NCBI RefSeq assembly: GCF_006265095.1
Contig: NZ_VCNK01000035.1
Coordinates: 1-61,338, forward strand
DNA from: Phaeobacter sp. B1627
GTDB taxonomy: Bacteria; Pseudomonadota; Alphaproteobacteria; Rhodobacterales; Rhodobacteraceae
Length of the DNA: 61,338 nt
Direction of reading: 5' to 3'
The notes beneath the pieces are model-generated. The model was not told where the DNA came from and did no database searches. It saw only the letters and a list, made by a program, of their open reading frames with translations. A program made the position numbers and the translations under genes. This document shows, piece by piece, positions 18,852 to 27,287 of this stretch (the stretch's first letter is position 1; each line of letters starts with the position of its first letter).

Positions 18852-18888
18852 TTGACGACTTTTCTCTGGCACCTTAGAACTATTCTAA
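18852..18888 (+). promoter_or_regulatory. iscR/suf promoter region with Irr/ICE-like palindrome
   Basis: TTAGAA (18874-18879), a 3-nt gap and TTCTAA (18883-18888) form a perfect palindrome matching the core of the iron control element bound by Irr in alphaproteobacteria. A -35-like TTGACG (18852-18857) lies 17 nt before TAGAAC (18875-18880), so the palindrome would cover the -10 element. Iron-responsive control of the suf operon is inferred. Confidence 0.65.
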
Positions 18889-18986: not shown

Positions 18987-19445
18987 ATGAAGCTTTCGAC
19001 AAAGGGACGATACGCGATGGTGGCCTTGGCCGATATCGCGATGCACCCGGCCAAGGGACTGGTCGTTTTGGCAGATATTTCCAAGCGCCAGGATATTTCC
19101 CTGCCATATCTGGAACAGTTGTTTGTGAAACTGCGCCGGGCTGGGCTGGTGGCGTCTGTGCGCGGGCCGGGCGGTGGCTATCGTCTTGCAAAGCCCGCGA
19201 CCGAGATCCGTGTTGTTGAGATTCTGGCGGCCGTGGATGAAACCGTCGACGCCATGCACAAAGGCGCCGGGGTGTCCGGTGGCGCATGTGGCAGTCGCGA
19301 ACAATCCCTCACCAACCGGCTCTGGGAAGGGTTGAGCGCGCATGTCTATGTGTTCCTGCACCAGACCCGGTTGTCCGATGTGATCGAAAACGATCTGGCG
19401 CCGTGTCCTGCGGTTCCGAACCTCTTTGCGGTTGTCGACGAGTAA
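18987..19445 (+). CDS. iscR: Rrf2-family iron-sulfur regulator IscR
   Basis: A 152-aa winged-helix regulator starting MKLSTKGRYAMVAL with the recognition region LPYLEQLFVKLRRAGLV and GPGGGYRLA wing typical of IscR. Enterobacterial IscR binds [2Fe-2S] through three cysteines and one histidine; here the corresponding loop (about 92-106) holds a single cysteine, Cys101, and the only other cysteine is Cys140. IscR of Rhodobacter sphaeroides is known to work with one conserved cysteine, which fits. It heads the suf operon and probably represses it. The gap to the next gene is 63 nt. Confidence 0.93.
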   Translation: MKLSTKGRYAMVALADIAMHPAKGLVVLADISKRQDISLPYLEQLFVKLRRAGLVASVRGPGGGYRLAKPATEIRVVEILAAVDETVDAMHKGAGVSGGACGSREQSLTNRLWEGLSAHVYVFLHQTRLSDVIENDLAPCPAVPNLFAVVDE

Positions 19446-19508
19446 CCATATCTAACTCACTCCCGGCCGTCAGAACGTCAAAATCCAAACGTCAAAAAAG
19501 ATGTCTCC

Positions 19509-20552
19509 ATGACCCGTGTCTATCTCGATCACAATGCCACGTCGCCGCTCCGCCCCGAAGCGCGCGATGCGATGATTGCGGCGATGGAGTATTGCGGCAA
19601 TCCGTCGTCGGTTCATGCAGAAGGCCGTGCGGCTAAGGCCGTGGTGGAGCGCGCCCGGGCACAGATTGCATCGGCTTTTGGTGCGGATGGTTCAGATGTT
19701 GTTTTCACCTCCGGTTCCACAGAGGGGGCTGCGCTGGCCTTGGCGGGGCGGAAATTACACGGGGCACCAGTTGAACATGACGCCGTAAGGGCCTGGATTG
19801 ATGAGGATCTGAAGGTTCTCACGGATGGGCGCGTCATTGTGGATGACCCGTCGCAGAGTTGCCTGCAATTGGCCAATTCCGAAACCGGTATCCTTCAGGA
19901 CTTGCCCGATGGTCTGGCCGTGACGGATGCGACGCAGGTCTTTGGAAAGCTGCCGGTGGCCTTCAACTGGATGGGGGCCACAATGGCCCTGATTTCGGCG
20001 CATAAACTCGGTGGACCAAAGGGCGTGGGTGCTGTTGTGATCAGGCGCGGGACCGAGCTCAGCGCGCAGATCAAGGGCGGCGGCCAGGAAATGGGACGTC
20101 GCTCCGGAACGGAAAATGTCATTGGAATTGCAGGCTTCGGCGCCGCAGCTGAAGCTTCTGCACGGGATTTGGACGCGGGGGTATGGGATCGGGTTGCACA
20201 ACTTAGAAATATTCTAGAAAACGTGCTTGCGACGAACTGCCCTGAAACTATTTTTATAGGTCAGGAGGCGCGCCGCCTGCCGAACACCTCGTGTTTCGCG
20301 ACCCCCGGCTGGAAGGGCGAAACACAGGTCATGCAAATGGATCTGGCGGGTTTTGCGATCAGTGCAGGCAGCGCTTGCTCCAGTGGCAAGGTGCGCGCCA
20401 GTGCGGTTCTGACCGCGATGGGATTTGACGAAACCACGGCCCAGGGTGCGATCCGCGTGTCGCTCGGGCCGGAGACGACGGAAACAGAAGTGCTGTGCTT
20501 TGCGGAAGCGTGGTGCGCCAAACAGAAAAAACATCGCGCCCGTTCGGCGTGA
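19509..20552 (+). CDS. NifS/IscS-type cysteine desulfurase (short)
   Basis: A 347-aa PLP enzyme that takes sulfur from cysteine. The PLP lysine is Lys166 (SAHKLGGPKG), the family QLANSETG motif is at 120-127, and the persulfide cysteine is Cys290 in GSACSSGK, the group I pattern of NifS/IscS. It is 40-50 residues shorter than usual because the segment after VEHDAV (about 88-115) is condensed. It sits second in the suf operon, before sufB. A second, SufS-type desulfurase ends the operon, so roles may be divided. An ICE-like palindrome occurs inside the gene at 20203-20217. Confidence 0.9.
   Translation: MTRVYLDHNATSPLRPEARDAMIAAMEYCGNPSSVHAEGRAAKAVVERARAQIASAFGADGSDVVFTSGSTEGAALALAGRKLHGAPVEHDAVRAWIDEDLKVLTDGRVIVDDPSQSCLQLANSETGILQDLPDGLAVTDATQVFGKLPVAFNWMGATMALISAHKLGGPKGVGAVVIRRGTELSAQIKGGGQEMGRRSGTENVIGIAGFGAAAEASARDLDAGVWDRVAQLRNILENVLATNCPETIFIGQEARRLPNTSCFATPGWKGETQVMQMDLAGFAISAGSACSSGKVRASAVLTAMGFDETTAQGAIRVSLGPETTETEVLCFAEAWCAKQKKHRARSA
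20203..20217. promoter_or_regulatory. ICE-like palindrome inside the desulfurase gene
   Basis: TTAGAA, a 3-nt gap and TTCTAG resemble the element upstream of iscR with one mismatch in the right arm. It lies in coding sequence of lower GC than its surroundings. It may be chance, or an internal Irr site. Confidence 0.3.
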
Positions 20553-20567
20553 GTTCAGGAGAACACG

Positions 20568-22088
20568 ATGGCCGCTCTGGACCAATTCGAAGCAAAAGAA
20601 GGTGTTGATCAGGAAACGGTGGATGCCGTTCGTGACGTCAGTACCTACAAATATGGTTGGGACACCGATATTGAGATGGAATACGCCCCCAAAGGCGTGA
20701 ACCCGGATATCGTGCGACTGATCTCTGGCAAGAACGAAGAGCCGGAATGGATGACCGAATGGCGTCTGCAGGCCTTTGAACGCTGGACGGGGATGAAAGA
20801 GCCGAACTGGGCTATGGTCAGCTACCCCGAGATCGACTTTCAGGACCAGTATTACTATGCCCGTCCCAAGAGCATGGAAACCCGGCCGAAGTCTCTGGAC
20901 GAGGTCGATCCCAAGCTTTTGGCAACCTACGAAAAGCTTGGCATCCCATTGAAAGAACAGATGCTTTTGGCTGGTGTCGAAGGCGCGGAAGATGCGCCGG
21001 ACGAAGGTCGCAAGGTGGCGGTCGATGCTGTGTTCGACTCGGTTTCCGTCGGCACCACCTTTCAGGCGGAGCTGAAAAAGGCGGGGGTGATCTTCTGCTC
21101 CATATCAGAGGCCATCCGCGAGCACCCAGAACTGGTCAAAAAGTATCTCGGCACGGTCGTCCCGGCGTCGGACAACTTTTATGCGACGCTGAATTCCGCT
21201 GTCTTTTCAGACGGATCCTTCGTCTACGTGCCGCCGGGCGTGCGCTGCCCGATGGAGCTGTCGACCTATTTCCGCATCAATGCGGAGAACACCGGCCAGT
21301 TTGAACGCACATTGATCATTGCCGACAAGGGCAGCTACGTGAGCTACCTTGAGGGCTGCACGGCGCCCCAGCGCGACACGGCCCAGCTGCATGCGGCGGT
21401 GGTCGAGATCATCATCGAAGAAGATGCCGAAGTGAAATATTCCACCGTTCAGAACTGGTATCCGGGCGATGAGAACGGCAAAGGCGGCATCTACAACTTT
21501 GTGACCAAGCGGGCCGATTGCCGGGGCGACCGGGCCAAGGTGATGTGGACACAGGTCGAAACCGGTTCTGCGGTCACCTGGAAATATCCCTCCTGCATCC
21601 TGCGCGGCGAAGAGAGCCAGGGCGAGTTCTATTCAATCGCCATTGCGAACAATATGCAGCAGGCCGACACCGGCACAAAGATGATCCACCTCGGTAAAAA
21701 CACCAAGAGCCGGATCGTGTCCAAAGGGATCTCGGCGGGCAAGGCGCAGAACACCTACCGCGGGCTCGTCTCGATGCATCCGAAGGCGAAGAACAGCCGC
21801 AACTACACGCAATGCGACTCTCTTTTGATCGGGGACAAATGTGGCGCCCATACCGTGCCCTATATCGAGGTGAAGAATAACTCCTCGCGCGTGGAGCACG
21901 AGGCCACGACCTCGAAGGTGGATGACGATCAGCTGTTCTATTGCCGCCAGCGCGGCATGGACGAGGAAGAGGCCGTCGCTCTGGTGGTGAACGGGTTCTG
22001 CAAGGATGTTCTTCAGGCTCTGCCGATGGAGTTCGCCATGGAAGCGCAGCAGCTGGTTGCCATTTCCCTCGAAGGGTCCGTCGGTTAA
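20568..22088 (+). CDS. sufB: Fe-S cluster scaffold subunit SufB
   Basis: A 506-aa SufB, the scaffold component of the SufBCD complex on which iron-sulfur clusters are built. Family sequence includes [24 protein letters not shown] (split around 185-210), SYLEGCTAP, the beta-helix core, [12 protein letters not shown], and the C-terminal [18 protein letters not shown] segment (here [15 protein letters not shown]) with its conserved cysteine. Length matches alphaproteobacterial SufB. A ribosome site AGGAG (20555-20559) precedes the ATG at 20568. It is separated from sufC by an FkbM methyltransferase gene. Confidence 0.97.
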
Positions 22089-22142
22089 CGGTCGCCATAG
22101 TCAAGGACGCAGCGGTCGCCCGGCGACGGCAGGAGATTTCGC

Positions 22143-22913
22143 ATGGATTTTGATCCGGCAAAACTGGCAGAGTTTACCGGCCGTATGGTCGCCGGAGAGC
22201 CTGTGGGCTTTCCGGGGCTTGACCTCCATGCCTGCGACATCTCCGGCCGTCGTTTCGTCTTTGCGGTGGATATGAAACGCGACCCAATTCAGCGTGCCCT
22301 CCGCGAGGGAAAATTCTACGAAGAGGAAGAGCTCTCGCTGGTGAAGTCGATCTTCCCGTTCGGGGGCACTTTCGTGGATATCGGTGCAAATGTCGGCAAC
22401 CATAGCCTCTATGTCGCGAGTTTTCTGACCGCTGCAAAGGTCATCCCGTTCGAGCCAAACCCCAAAGCGTTGAAACTTCTGCTGGCCAATATCGCGATGA
22501 ACGGTCTGACGGATCGTTTCGATCTCAGCCATCTGGGGCAGGGCGTGGCGAGGAGTCCGGGCACCGGCTTTGGGATCGAGGACAGAAACAGGAACCTTGG
22601 CGCCGCCCGGATGCGTGCTGGCGAAGGGGAGATCCGGGTCACGACGGGCGACATCGCGCTTGTCAACGATGCCCCGGATTTCATCAAGATCGATGTTGAA
22701 GGCATGGAAATAGACGTGCTCTGCGGTCTTCGGGAGACAATCGCCCGGTGTCAGCCTGCTTTGCTTGTCGAAGTGGACCGTGACAATGACACAGCCTTTC
22801 ATGCGCTGCTTGACGAGATCGGTTACTGCGTCGTCCAGACGTTGCAGCACTACCGACAAAACAAGAATTACGTTGTCAAACCGCGTCCGGATGACGCGGC
22901 TGGGCAAGGATAG
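22143..22913 (+). CDS. FkbM-family methyltransferase inside the suf operon
   Basis: A 256-aa SAM-dependent methyltransferase of the FkbM type. Motif I is FVDIGANVGNHS (77-88), followed by PFEPNP (motif II acidic residue) and the family's IKIDVEGMEIDVLCG. FkbM enzymes O-methylate sugars, peptides or polyketides; the substrate here is unknown. It begins 54 nt after sufB with GGAG (22131-22134) before the ATG, and sufC starts 55 nt after it, all on one strand. It has no known part in cluster assembly, so it is either cargo of the operon or a passenger. Confidence 0.88.
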   Translation: MDFDPAKLAEFTGRMVAGEPVGFPGLDLHACDISGRRFVFAVDMKRDPIQRALREGKFYEEEELSLVKSIFPFGGTFVDIGANVGNHSLYVASFLTAAKVIPFEPNPKALKLLLANIAMNGLTDRFDLSHLGQGVARSPGTGFGIEDRNRNLGAARMRAGEGEIRVTTGDIALVNDAPDFIKIDVEGMEIDVLCGLRETIARCQPALLVEVDRDNDTAFHALLDEIGYCVVQTLQHYRQNKNYVVKPRPDDAAGQG

Positions 22914-22968
22914 AAGATAAATATCCGCACCTTGTGACGGATTGTCAGAGACAAAAGGACGAATAGAA

Positions 22969-23724
22969 ATGCTTGAGATCAAGAACCTGCACGTAAAACT
23001 TGAAGAAGAGGACAAGCAGATCCTCAAGGGTGTGAACCTGACCGTGGAAGCGGGCAAGGTGCATGCGATCATGGGGCCGAACGGCTCTGGAAAATCCACC
23101 CTGTCCTATGTGTTGGCGGGCAAGGACGGCTATGAGGTCACCGAGGGTTCGGCAACTTTGGCGGGCGAGGAATTGCTGGAGCTGGAGCCGGAAGAACGCG
23201 CCGCGCTTGGTGTGTTTCTTGCGTTCCAATACCCCGTCGAAATCCCCGGCGTCGGCAATATGACGTTCCTGCGGACCGCGGTGAATGCACAGCGCAAAGC
23301 GCGGGGCGAAGAGGAACTCTCGGCCTCTGATTTTCTGAAGGTCGTGCGTGAAAAGGCGAAAACGCTGAAGATCGACGCCGATATGCTCAAGCGTCCGGTC
23401 AATGTCGGCTTCTCCGGTGGTGAGAAGAAGCGGAACGAAATCCTGCAGATGGCGATGCTGGAACCCAAGATGTGCATTCTGGACGAGACCGACTCTGGTC
23501 TGGACGTCGACGCCATGAAACTGGTTGCGGACGGGGTGAATGCGCTGCGGGATGAGGGACGGGGATTTCTCGTGATCACGCACTACCAGCGTCTTCTGGA
23601 CCACATCAAACCGGACGTTGTTCATATTATGGCCGATGGCCGGATCATCAAGACCGGCGGTCCTGAGCTGGCGCTTGAGGTGGAGAACAACGGCTACGCA
23701 GACATCCTCGCCGAGGTGGCATAA
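22969..23724 (+). CDS. sufC: SufC ATPase of the SufBCD complex
   Basis: A 251-aa ABC-type ATPase that drives conformational change in SufBCD. Walker A is GPNGSGKST (36-44), the signature is FSGGEKKRNE, and Walker B is CILDETDSGLD, all typical of SufC. The ATG at 22969 is chosen because AAAGGA lies about 8 nt upstream; an in-frame TTG at 22942 would add nine residues. Its stop overlaps the sufD start by one base (TAATG). Confidence 0.97.
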   Translation: MLEIKNLHVKLEEEDKQILKGVNLTVEAGKVHAIMGPNGSGKSTLSYVLAGKDGYEVTEGSATLAGEELLELEPEERAALGVFLAFQYPVEIPGVGNMTFLRTAVNAQRKARGEEELSASDFLKVVREKAKTLKIDADMLKRPVNVGFSGGEKKRNEILQMAMLEPKMCILDETDSGLDVDAMKLVADGVNALRDEGRGFLVITHYQRLLDHIKPDVVHIMADGRIIKTGGPELALEVENNGYADILAEVA

Positions 23725-25004
23725 TGGCGCTTCCTGAGTTGAAACAATCCACGACAGAGGCGCGCCTGGCGTCATTGTCGATGCCCGCTGGTGGCTGTCT
23801 CGAGGCTGCGCGACGTGCGGCGATCTCACGTGTGCAGGCCACCGGGCTTCCTGATCGTCGGGACGAGTATTGGAAATACACCCGACCCGATACACTCACT
23901 GTCGCCGAGGCCCCGAAGGCGGCCGTCTTTGACAGCGGCGAAGAACCGATGTTCGATGCATTCGACCGCATCAAGATCGTATTCGTCGATGGAGTGTTTG
24001 ACGCGGCGGCGTCCGATGATCTGGCCCTGGAGGGTGTGAGCATCGAGCGTCTCGCGGATCTTGCTGGCAAAGATATCCATTGGAGCAAGGACATATACGG
24101 CGTTCTTGAAGCGCGTGGACAATCCCCGGTGGAGCGTCCTCTTGCCGCACTGAACACAGGCTATGCCACGGATGGTGTTGTCATCCATGTGACGGGACGC
24201 CCCTCCAAGCCGATCAATCTGGTCTATCGCCACCAGAGTGACAGCTCGGATGCGATGCTTCATCACGTGGTCAAAGTGGACAGCGGTGCCGAGGCGACCA
24301 TTCTGGAAAACGGCCCGGCCGCATCGCGGTTCAGTCACGTGATGGAGATCGACATTGCCGATACCGGAACGCTTCATCTGGTGCGGGCGCAAGGCCGTGA
24401 CCACGAGCTGCGGAACGCAACGCATCTGTTCGCCCGCCTCGGCCGCGAGTCCGTCTTCAAGAGCTTCACGTTGACGGTGAACGGTGTTCTTACGCGCAAT
24501 GAGGCCGTGATTGAATTCCTGGGTGATGATGCGGTTGCCCATGTGGCGGGAGCCTGCGTCGGAGACGGCGACTTCCACCATGATGACACGGTGTTCGTGA
24601 CCCACGATGCGGTAAATTGCGAAAGCCGTCAGGTTTTCAAAAAGGTTCTCCGCAATGGCGCCACAGGCGTGTTCCAAGGCAAGATCCTGGTGAAGGAAGG
24701 CGCTCAAAAGACTGACGGCTATCAGATTTCGCAATCTTTGTTGCTGGATGACGATAGCCAGTTTCTTGCCAAGCCGGAGCTGGAAATCTACGCCGACGAT
24801 GTGGCCTGCTCGCACGGGTCAACCTCTGGTGCGATCGACGAGGACGGTCTCTTCTACCTCCGTTCGCGCGGCGTGCCCGAAGCCGAGGCAACCGACCTGA
24901 TGACACTCGCTTTCCTGGCCGAGGCCGTGGAAGAAATCGATAGCGATGACATTGCAGCCTCGATCAATGACCGCCTCTACGGCTGGTTGGCGCGGCGGCG
25001 CTGA
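23724..25004 (+). CDS. sufD: Fe-S cluster assembly subunit SufD
   Basis: A 426-aa SufD, partner of SufB and SufC. The N-terminal helical part contains RRDEYWKYTRPD, and the C-terminal beta-helix carries the family segment KPELEIYADDVACSHGSTSGAIDEDGLFYLRSRG (spread over about 350-384) with the conserved Cys and His. The start overlaps the sufC stop by 1 nt. It is followed 6 nt later by a pair of membrane-protein genes. Confidence 0.96.
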   Translation: MALPELKQSTTEARLASLSMPAGGCLEAARRAAISRVQATGLPDRRDEYWKYTRPDTLTVAEAPKAAVFDSGEEPMFDAFDRIKIVFVDGVFDAAASDDLALEGVSIERLADLAGKDIHWSKDIYGVLEARGQSPVERPLAALNTGYATDGVVIHVTGRPSKPINLVYRHQSDSSDAMLHHVVKVDSGAEATILENGPAASRFSHVMEIDIADTGTLHLVRAQGRDHELRNATHLFARLGRESVFKSFTLTVNGVLTRNEAVIEFLGDDAVAHVAGACVGDGDFHHDDTVFVTHDAVNCESRQVFKKVLRNGATGVFQGKILVKEGAQKTDGYQISQSLLLDDDSQFLAKPELEIYADDVACSHGSTSGAIDEDGLFYLRSRGVPEAEATDLMTLAFLAEAVEEIDSDDIAASINDRLYGWLARRR

Positions 25005-25010
25005 GTTCGG

Positions 25011-25496
25011 ATGGCGGTGACCTCTGATATTCTTGCAACCTATCGGGGGCCGCGAAAAGTAATCGCGCGGCTCCTGAATATGGGGCCACGCGAGGATCGG
25101 CTTTTGGCTTTCCTGATGGGGGCTTGCGTTTTGATGTTCATCGCGCAGATGCCGCGGCTTGCGCGCGAGGCCTATCTGACCGGGCAAGAGCTGAACATGC
25201 TGCTGGGCGGTGCGCTGCTTGGGATCGTGTTTATCGCCCCGTTGGCCCTCTATACTTTGGCCTGGCTCTCGCATCTGGCTCTGCGGTCTTTGGGCGGGCA
25301 GGGCGACGGATACCAAAGCCGCCTGGCCTTGTTCTGGGCGTTTCTGGCGGCCACTCCGCTTTTGCTCCTGAACGGTCTCGTTGCCGGTTTTATTGGCTCC
25401 GGCAGCGCATTGGTTGCCGTTGGCGTTCTTTGGAGTTTTGTGTTCCTTTGGTTCTGGATTTCAGGTCTGTTTCAGGCCTATTGGGGAAAAACCTGA
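25011..25496 (+). CDS. YIP1-like membrane protein (first of pair)
   Basis: A 161-aa integral membrane protein with about four hydrophobic segments (roughly 30-48, 64-88, 105-127, 130-152) and a basic N-terminus. Composition and layout resemble the YIP1/DUF1282 family; the match is weak by eye. It begins 6 nt after sufD and its stop overlaps the next start by 1 nt (TGATG), so it belongs to the suf transcript. Function unknown. Confidence 0.75.
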   Translation: MAVTSDILATYRGPRKVIARLLNMGPREDRLLAFLMGACVLMFIAQMPRLAREAYLTGQELNMLLGGALLGIVFIAPLALYTLAWLSHLALRSLGGQGDGYQSRLALFWAFLAATPLLLLNGLVAGFIGSGSALVAVGVLWSFVFLWFWISGLFQAYWGKT

Positions 25497-26074
25497 TGGA
25501 TTTCAAAGCTCTCGCTCTTGAAACGGTTCTGGCACCGGCCAGTGCCGCACGCAGATTGCTTGACCGGAAATTTGACGCCGAAGTGATCTGGACCGGATTT
25601 GCGCTGAGCGTCGTGCTGAGCGTGCTTCTGTATGCCGTGCAGGGCTTTCTGCTGGGCGCGCCGTCCAATGCGGTGTTTCCCTCCCTCAGCCCGGCGATGT
25701 TCGGTGTTTTTCTCGCCTCTCTGCAATTGGCCTATACGATTTCCGCGATCGTTGTCGGCAGCTGGCTTGGGGGGCATGCGGGTTTTGTCCCGTTCTTTGG
25801 GCTTCTGGTCTGGCTTCGCTTTGTTAATATCGCGGTTCAAACCGCTGCGATTGTTATGGTTTTCATCATGCCACCAATCGCAATCGTGCTCAATCTTGCG
25901 GCTGCAGTCTATGGGTTCTACGTCTTGTTGCACTTTACCAACGTGGGCTTCGGTCTCAACTCCATGGCGAAGTCGCTCGGCGTGATACTGCTTGCGGGGC
26001 TTGGCGCAATGACCGTCATTCTACTTCTGATGGGGCTTTTTGTTCCCGCAATTCTGGAGACCTCCAATGTATGA
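25496..26074 (+). CDS. YIP1-family membrane protein (second of pair)
   Basis: A 192-aa membrane protein with an N-terminal cytosolic segment (MDFKALALETVLAPASAARR) and about five hydrophobic helices from residue 40 on, in the pattern of YIP1-domain proteins. The start overlaps the preceding stop by one base, and its 3' end overlaps the sufS start by 8 nt, so translation of the three genes is probably coupled. The frame is open further upstream to 25124 but that part runs antiphase through the previous gene. Role in cluster assembly, iron or membrane is unknown. Confidence 0.8.
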   Translation: MDFKALALETVLAPASAARRLLDRKFDAEVIWTGFALSVVLSVLLYAVQGFLLGAPSNAVFPSLSPAMFGVFLASLQLAYTISAIVVGSWLGGHAGFVPFFGLLVWLRFVNIAVQTAAIVMVFIMPPIAIVLNLAAAVYGFYVLLHFTNVGFGLNSMAKSLGVILLAGLGAMTVILLLMGLFVPAILETSNV

Positions 26075-27287
26075 TGTCGAACAAATCCGTTCCGATTTCC
26101 CCATCTTGTCGCGTGAGGTCAACGGCAAGCCACTGACCTATCTCGACAATGGTGCATCCGCTCAGAAGCCGCAGATTGTCATCGATGCGATCACCAAAGC
26201 ATACGCACAGGAATATTCCAACGTACACAGAGGGTTGCACTACCTATCCAACCTGGCGACTGAGAAATACGAAGCCGTACGCGGGACCATCGCCCGATTT
26301 CTGAATGTCGAGAACGAGGACCATATCGTTCTAAATTCAGGCACAACGGAAGGGATCAATCTGGTCGCCTATGCCTGGGCCATGCCACGGTTCGAGGCGG
26401 GAGACGAGATCATCTTGTCCGTCATGGAACACCACGCCAATATCGTGCCCTGGCATTTCCTGCGCGAAAGACAGGGCGTGAAATTGAAATGGATCGAGAC
26501 AGAGGTGGACGGAAGCCTGGATCCACAGAAGGTTCTGGATGCCATTGGCCCCAGAACCAAACTGATCGCGATTACTCATTGTTCCAATGTGTTGGGGACT
26601 GTTGTTGACGTAAAAGCCATTTCTGCAGGCGCGCGTGAAAAAGATGTGCCCGTGTTGGTCGACGGATCGCAAAGCGCCGTGCATATGCCTGTGGATGTAC
26701 AGGATCTCGGCTGTGATTTCTACGCGATCACGGGGCACAAACTTTATGGTCCAACCGGTTCTGGCGCGATTTATATCCGACCCGAGCGAATGGCTGAGAT
26801 GCGGCCCTTTATGGGGGGCGGCGATATGATCAAAGAGGTGACGCGGGATCGGGTGATTTACAATCATCCGCCAATGAAATTTGAGGCCGGAACTCCAGGG
26901 ATCGTTCAAACGATCGGATTGGGCGTTGCACTGGACTATATGATGAATGTCGGCATGGCGAACATCGCGGCGCATGAAGCCAGCCTCCGAGATTATGCAT
27001 CAGACCGGTTCAAGGGCCTCAACTGGCTCAACATCCAGGGGCAGGCTCCCGGGAAAGCCGCCATATTCAGTTTGACATTGGACGGCGCTGCCCATGCGCA
27101 TGACATTTCAACCATTCTGGACAAGAAAGGCGTTGCCGTTCGTGCGGGCCATCACTGCGCCGGTCCTTTGATGGAGCATCTTGGTGTGACCGCGACCTGT
27201 CGGGCGTCTTTCGGCATGTATAACACGATGCAGGACGTCGATCGTTTGGTCGACGCACTTGAACTGGCGCATGAGTTGTTTTCGTAA
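26067..27287 (+). CDS. sufS: SufS-type cysteine desulfurase
   Basis: A 406-aa group II cysteine desulfurase that supplies sulfur to SufBCD. It opens YDVEQIRSDFPIL and YLDNGASAQKP, has the PLP lysine Lys225 (ITGHKLYGPTG) and the persulfide cysteine Cys364 in RAGHHCAGP, the short-loop pattern of SufS. GGAGACC (26057-26063) precedes the chosen ATG at 26067. It overlaps the upstream membrane-protein gene by 8 nt and is the last recognisable gene of the operon; SufE, SufT and SufA genes are not found after it. Confidence 0.96.
   Translation: MYDVEQIRSDFPILSREVNGKPLTYLDNGASAQKPQIVIDAITKAYAQEYSNVHRGLHYLSNLATEKYEAVRGTIARFLNVENEDHIVLNSGTTEGINLVAYAWAMPRFEAGDEIILSVMEHHANIVPWHFLRERQGVKLKWIETEVDGSLDPQKVLDAIGPRTKLIAITHCSNVLGTVVDVKAISAGAREKDVPVLVDGSQSAVHMPVDVQDLGCDFYAITGHKLYGPTGSGAIYIRPERMAEMRPFMGGGDMIKEVTRDRVIYNHPPMKFEAGTPGIVQTIGLGVALDYMMNVGMANIAAHEASLRDYASDRFKGLNWLNIQGQAPGKAAIFSLTLDGAAHAHDISTILDKKGVAVRAGHHCAGPLMEHLGVTATCRASFGMYNTMQDVDRLVDALELAHELFS

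Follow-up and report, generated by a model that had tools for sequence, protein, structure and literature searches.

The isc-suf operon studied here occupies positions 18987 (iscR start) to 27287 (sufS stop) of the window, by which the whole 61,338-nucleotide (nt) contig NZ_VCNK01000035.1 of Phaeobacter sp. B1627 is meant, and it consists of nine genes, all on the + strand and each with a Pfam match, in the order iscR-iscS-sufB-FkbM-sufC-sufD-YIP1a-YIP1b-sufS. The two genes for YIP1-like membrane proteins, YIP1a (25011..25496, +) and YIP1b (25496..26074, +), were found to belong firmly to this operon within a single bacterial family, and the FkbM-type methyltransferase gene was found to be dispensable, as it is gained and lost inside one genus. 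With a probability of about 0.5, the YIP1 pair serves the Suf iron-sulfur (Fe-S) cluster assembly system as a membrane accessory, fixed in place and translationally coupled, and the FkbM gene is co-transcribed cargo of a slot between sufB and sufC. The label isc-suf is used because iscR and iscS stand at the start of the operon. A first-pass annotation of this DNA had described one strand with tiny gaps or overlaps, an FkbM gene splitting sufB from sufC, and a membrane pair splitting sufD from sufS, and the sequence, the Pfam matches and the coordinates bear it out: the overlaps are 1 nt for sufC/sufD (23724), 1 nt for YIP1a/YIP1b (25496) and 8 nt for YIP1b/sufS (26067-26074), and the gaps are 6 nt for sufD/YIP1a, 54 nt for sufB/FkbM and 55 nt for FkbM/sufC.

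In this study, family denotes the Rhodobacteraceae group, some members of which the tree program puts in Roseobacteraceae or Paracoccaceae. The YIP1a profile, counted as matches anywhere in a genome, with some weak ones possibly being YIP1b, was matched in 287 of 295 family genomes (257 of the 260 good ones) and in 0 of 237 other alphaproteobacteria. Moreover, a class-wide draw gave YIP1a matches in 3 of 240 genomes, all three being family members, and the YIP1b profile class-wide hit three family members and, weakly, genome G307, where no suf gene was seen beside the match. Among 80 family loci collected through SufD and not through YIP1, tblastn detected YIP1a in all 80 and YIP1b in 74; with a profile, YIP1b was recovered in 117 of the 118 loci having the other genes, the sole miss being locus L078 (40 of these loci had been picked by their YIP1a match and inform on place and slot content, not on presence). 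The comparison of suf loci proposed in the first-pass annotation has thus shown the pair to be kept in the family. No other YIP1 protein was found in the host genome, a draft of 99.9% completeness, where YIP1 matches at E values up to 1 numbered two, both in the operon.

The position of the pair was equally constant: in all loci read, the genes, where present, occupied the same place in the suf operon. The sufD-sufS interval measured 1061-1158 nt in 75 of the 76 SufD-found loci used for intervals, with L078 (599 nt) as the exception; loci with a truncated sufB (L040, L106) or lacking sufS (L076, L104) were left out. In the 40 YIP1a-picked loci, the interval was 1067-1224 nt. The YIP1a/YIP1b overlap was 4 nt in 62 of 77 loci (1 nt in the window) and the YIP1b/sufS overlap 8 nt in 48 of 77, as in the window; the choice of start codon favors starts close to the upstream stop in such counts. 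Of the eight family genomes with no YIP1a match, four had no SufD found either, and one had a contig end in sufD. The remaining three carried suf genes with YIP1a missing, and their sufD-sufS gaps of 589 nt (G150), 643 nt (G054) and 673 nt (G248) each contained one YIP1b-profile frame (E values of 1e-34, 1.5e-22 and, weakly, 5.1e-6, respectively). Outside the family, where 28 loci from the 86 genomes with a SufD match were examined, sufS lay within about 150 nt of sufD in all 27 loci with sufS in reach, and no YIP1-like frame was present between sufD and sufS in those 27. Because of the sharp family boundary, the YIP1b-like frames and the adjacency of sufD and sufS outside, the pair is best read as having entered near the base of one family and having been kept since in at least one copy.

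The operon arrangement and the gene families are already known. In Rhodobacter sphaeroides, as described in the available portions of PMC6956336 and PMC4618611, the operon reads iscR-iscS-sufB-RSP_0439-sufC-sufD-RSP_0433-RSP_0432-sufS, with two Yip1-family genes; the authors of the former called the arrangement highly conserved in Rhodobacteraceae, with non-annotated frames varying somewhat. The window contains iscR, iscS, sufB, sufC, sufD and sufS in this Rhodobacteraceae order on one strand, where the Yip1 pair likewise separates sufD from sufS and a further gene separates sufB from sufC. The two operons differ in that RSP_0439 is called hypothetical in those portions, whereas an FkbM methyltransferase occupies the slot of the window. 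The isc-suf operon of Caulobacter crescentus also unites the six assembly genes and carries an extra gene between sufB and sufC, but in the accessible part of its description (PMC11475020) no YIP1 gene is mentioned and more assembly genes follow sufS. The earlier statement that none of the extra proteins is a known Suf component holds for function in the literature searched, largely without subscription papers, where none was found for the YIP1 pair; it has to be amended in that two Yip1 genes had already been described in the R. sphaeroides operon. What this analysis adds is that the YIP1 pair has a sharp family boundary and is retained almost universally within it, and that the suf-linked FkbM has the nature of cargo.

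Both YIP1 proteins matched PF04893 of the YIP1 family, YIP1a at 1.1e-5 (25.9 bits, under the Pfam cut-off of 28.6) and YIP1b at 1e-7 (32.4 bits, over it), and both gave helical membrane models, although they depart from the family in that YIP1a is under the cut-off with four spans, YIP1b has five and the pair is operon-bound. In the model of YIP1a (predicted local distance difference test, pLDDT, 95.1), a pair of short N-terminal helices is followed by four helical spans of membrane length, one of them broken; in that of YIP1b (pLDDT 92.5), a similar N-terminal pair is followed by five helices of membrane length. The two proteins look like distant kin, since their profiles aligned over 90 columns (E 1.5e-4, probability 51%). 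Positive charges are crowded at the N-terminus of both proteins, which suggests that the N-termini face the cytoplasm. No histidine occurred among the residues conserved to at least 80% in 36 YIP1a proteins, and the acidic ones were limited to D6 and E28; the conserved polar residues included E28, C39, R52, Y81 and R104, and tryptophans were conserved as well. YIP1b had one common histidine (30 of 36 proteins), which is missing from the copy in the window. No metal site is therefore visible in the pair as far as conservation can tell, and metal sensing or transport is not favored. Furthermore, the ratio of nonsynonymous to synonymous substitution rates (dN/dS) of both YIP1 genes was about 0.05-0.25, indicating purifying selection.

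These features suggest how the operon might work. The operon would be of the type usual in the Rhodobacteraceae group, enlarged by extra genes of two kinds. Of these, the YIP1 pair would have been inserted between sufD and sufS when the family arose, or close to that point, and then retained. Both YIP1 proteins would lie in the inner membrane, each with its paired N-terminal helices facing the cytoplasm, and most likely they would dock SufBCD, SufS or both at the membrane, which would place Suf near the respiratory Fe-S enzymes. Respiratory Fe-S enzymes are large users of clusters. The role of the pair is probably that of a docking element, judging from the sequences and models, and docking is preferred to transport because no metal site was seen, because the genes stand next to sufS and because of the N-terminal helices. 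The proposal that membrane proteins are tied to Fe-S assembly is partly supported, insofar as the genes are conserved, overlapping neighbors family-wide and were not found outside; tethering may apply, whereas its variants of metal sensing and transport are not favored. Suf is usually regarded as a soluble machine. A membrane pair that appeared once at the family base, was kept almost throughout and is translated together with sufS would offer a way to ask by what route clusters arrive at enzymes of the membrane. In a bolder form that can be advanced only tentatively, and that we consider doubtful, the pair would be the first membrane-embedded part of Suf, a family-specific inner-membrane platform that holds SufBCD-SufS at the membrane and is indispensable under iron stress.

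Several points weigh against a Suf role of the pair. The case for it is one of gene linkage only, and constant position alone could come from translational coupling to sufS. Either YIP1 gene can be absent singly, YIP1a in G150, G054 and G248 and YIP1b in L078. The median distance of YIP1b was 1.64, compared with 0.66 for YIP1a and 0.10-0.38 for six isc/suf genes, and such very fast evolution is unlike that of a tight-fitting subunit. In addition, distance-matrix co-evolution singled out no YIP1-Suf pair and no YIP1a-YIP1b pair (partial r for the latter, 0.17). In the expression tables of PMC4176601 and PMC3413700, as far as available, RSP_0433 and RSP_0432 are missing, and RSP_0439, the gene between sufB and sufC of R. 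sphaeroides, showed no rise under anoxic conditions or without OxyR (PMC4176601). As a separate observation, none of the other seven core operon genes in the comparison evolved as fast as YIP1b, though its place and overlaps are nearly fixed.

The fast divergence of YIP1b, the missing co-evolution signal with Suf proteins and the single absences would also be expected if the pair were a membrane helper for something else, such as membrane shape or another protein, and stayed in the operon because its production has to go along with Fe-S assembly. The recurrence of the pair at the same suf-operon place in all loci read that contain it argues against this, and we regard it as unlikely while crediting it with some weight. 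A role as a small transporter that moves cysteine, sulfide or iron as a Suf substrate would fit membrane proteins encoded next to sufS, and the genes RSP_0433/RSP_0432 are labelled a putative sulfate transporter in the accessible text of PMC4618611. The chance of this is small, as Pfam assigns both proteins to YIP1 and to no transporter family, the conserved polar residues of YIP1a do not form a metal-binding set, and structure comparison returned only low-scoring helical matches, some of them transporters, and was uninformative. A similarly slim chance is given to the pair being a hitch-hiker, trapped because its loss would break the translation of sufS, which starts inside YIP1b. The frequent 8-nt overlap speaks for such trapping, but escape from it is possible, since L078 lacks YIP1b and has sufS 93 nt behind YIP1a; moreover, dN/dS well under 1 for both genes and YIP1a profile matches in 286 of the 294 genera drawn are at odds with a mere passenger.

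In contrast to the YIP1 pair, the FkbM gene (22143..22913, +) sits in a slot (22089..22968, +) whose interval ranges from 63 to 3904 nt and whose content varies over 119 loci, the window and repeats (at least 6 of the 40 YIP1a-picked loci) included. YbjQ (PF01906) was found in 79 of these slots, a 200-residue protein in 33, a long FkbM in 12, a short FkbM in 11 and a polysaccharide pyruvyl transferase in 10; small membrane proteins occurred as well, and some relatives had empty slots of 63-75 nt. The idea of FkbM as a conserved suf gene did not survive this comparison, because any FkbM was present in 23 of the 119 slots and hence missing from most related suf loci. In the genus of the window, of which 17 of 18 genomes were mapped, 7 of 17 loci had FkbM and 11 of 17 had YbjQ: the window, G540 and G543 carry FkbM without YbjQ, and G535 and G536 carry YbjQ without FkbM. 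It is this changing presence within the genus and across slots that makes FkbM dispensable.

The FkbM protein of the window passed both curated cut-offs of the FkbM-family methyltransferases, PF05050 (Methyltransf_21, 1.3e-17) and TIGR01444, and contains a motif like the S-adenosylmethionine (SAM) site, as is common in the family. As a member of this family, it probably methylates a sugar or another hydroxyl. What sets it apart is its group: of the best 30 of 51 matches in 47 genomes (295 family genomes searched), 28, the window included, were flanked by sufB or sufC, with L125 and L137 as exceptions. By these matches, the gene is no random passenger and belongs to a suf-linked FkbM group. Its dN/dS was 0.12-0.14 relative to G540. 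In the tree, the short and long FkbM proteins of the slots fell into two far-apart groups. Nearly all seeds of the long branch came from slots, and the fact that it contains suf loci alone is therefore no test. Within one FkbM group, the gene stands before YbjQ in some loci and after it in others, and because the groups lie far apart and the order changes in this way, the slot appears to have been reshuffled. FkbM would then be cargo on the operon transcript, in a variable slot and unneeded by Suf, and the slot would mean that an Fe-S assembly operon can carry exchangeable cargo on its transcript. That FkbM is itself a Suf component, methylating for example a Suf protein or cofactor, is very improbable: the suf-linked group, the purifying selection and the three methyltransferase-type motifs all intact in 29 of 44 short sequences are consistent with it, but most relatives lack the gene in their slot, as do G535 and G536 from the genus of the window, and the slot also houses other changing genes such as the pyruvyl transferase. 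A full-text search, largely without subscription papers, found no paper naming both 'FkbM' and 'suf operon'.

Some further features of the slot were observed. Two FkbM genes, one short and one long, share a slot in L115, L116, L120, L127 and L142, where they are adjacent or stand around YbjQ. YbjQ, annotated as 'putative heavy-metal-binding', is the commonest recognized resident (e.g., L072:6792-7133), with none in the slot of the window. The 200-residue protein (e.g., L102:6606-7205) has a methyltransferase-like glycine motif by eye and no Pfam match.

Two candidate regulatory sites precede the extra genes. A search of the window for Irr boxes with up to 2 mismatches returned 4 matches (2 sites, both strands) against 0.35 expected. 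The first site, an Irr-box-like palindrome upstream of iscR (18874..18888, +), is an exact match to TTAGAANNATTCTAA, and such a site was present in 106 of 111 loci. The second (20203..20217, +) lies inside the iscS coding sequence and matches the internal promoter P3 of R. sphaeroides, so the two operons share an Irr-like site inside iscS, with promoter activity known for R. sphaeroides and a sequence element seen here. This site stands mostly at one distance from the end of iscS, and 2 matches occurred in 773 kb of later operon parts. It makes codons 232-237 of iscS (CTT AGA AAT ATT CTA GAA) the most biased six-codon stretch of the gene, at 9.9 bits compared with a median of 0.9. The site, rare codons included, recurs inside iscS in 92 of the 111 family loci, and the 19 loci without it include five of Shimia and two of Roseobacter. 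According to the available portions of PMC6956336, P3 of R. sphaeroides reads sufB and later genes and is bound by Irr, by gel shift, and by IscR; Irr binding to the site upstream of iscR was not confirmed in vitro, and in the wild type P3 had no significant iron response whereas P2 had one. Co-transcription of the isc-suf operon is backed there by RNA sequencing and reverse transcription PCR (PMC6956336, PMC4618611), and differential RNA sequencing, in the same portions, did not point to any promoter behind P3 in iscS (PMC6956336). Furthermore, when iron was limiting under oxic conditions, wild-type cells raised RSP_0439 together with sufB, sufC and sufD (log2 1.49 for RSP_0439; PMC4176601), and its ratio in the expression table of PMC3413700 was 1.81. 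Since both Irr-like sites precede the stretch from sufB to sufS, we infer that the cargo and YIP1 genes probably share this control here.

The remaining genes were assigned as follows. The Rrf2 family regulator gene iscR (18987..19445, +) matched PF02082 at 4.4e-35, and its top NCBIfam match, IscR, was under cut-off, as were the NifS/IscS matches of the iscS/NifS-type cysteine desulfurase gene (19509..20552, +; PF00266 1.1e-35). The NCBIfam cut-offs were passed by sufB (20568..22088, +; PF01458 2.1e-83; TIGR01980), the ATP-binding cassette ATPase gene sufC (22969..23724, +; PF00005 1.9e-20; TIGR01978) and sufS (26067..27287, +; PF00266 5.3e-132; TIGR01979), as they were by FkbM; sufD (23724..25004, +; PF01458 5.3e-66) scored 215.9, under its cut-off of 222. 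In Pfam terms, iscS and sufS encode class V aminotransferases, and sufB and sufD share the SufB/SufD core. The host genome contains two SufB/D-core matches, both in the operon, and three FkbM matches, one of them in the operon.

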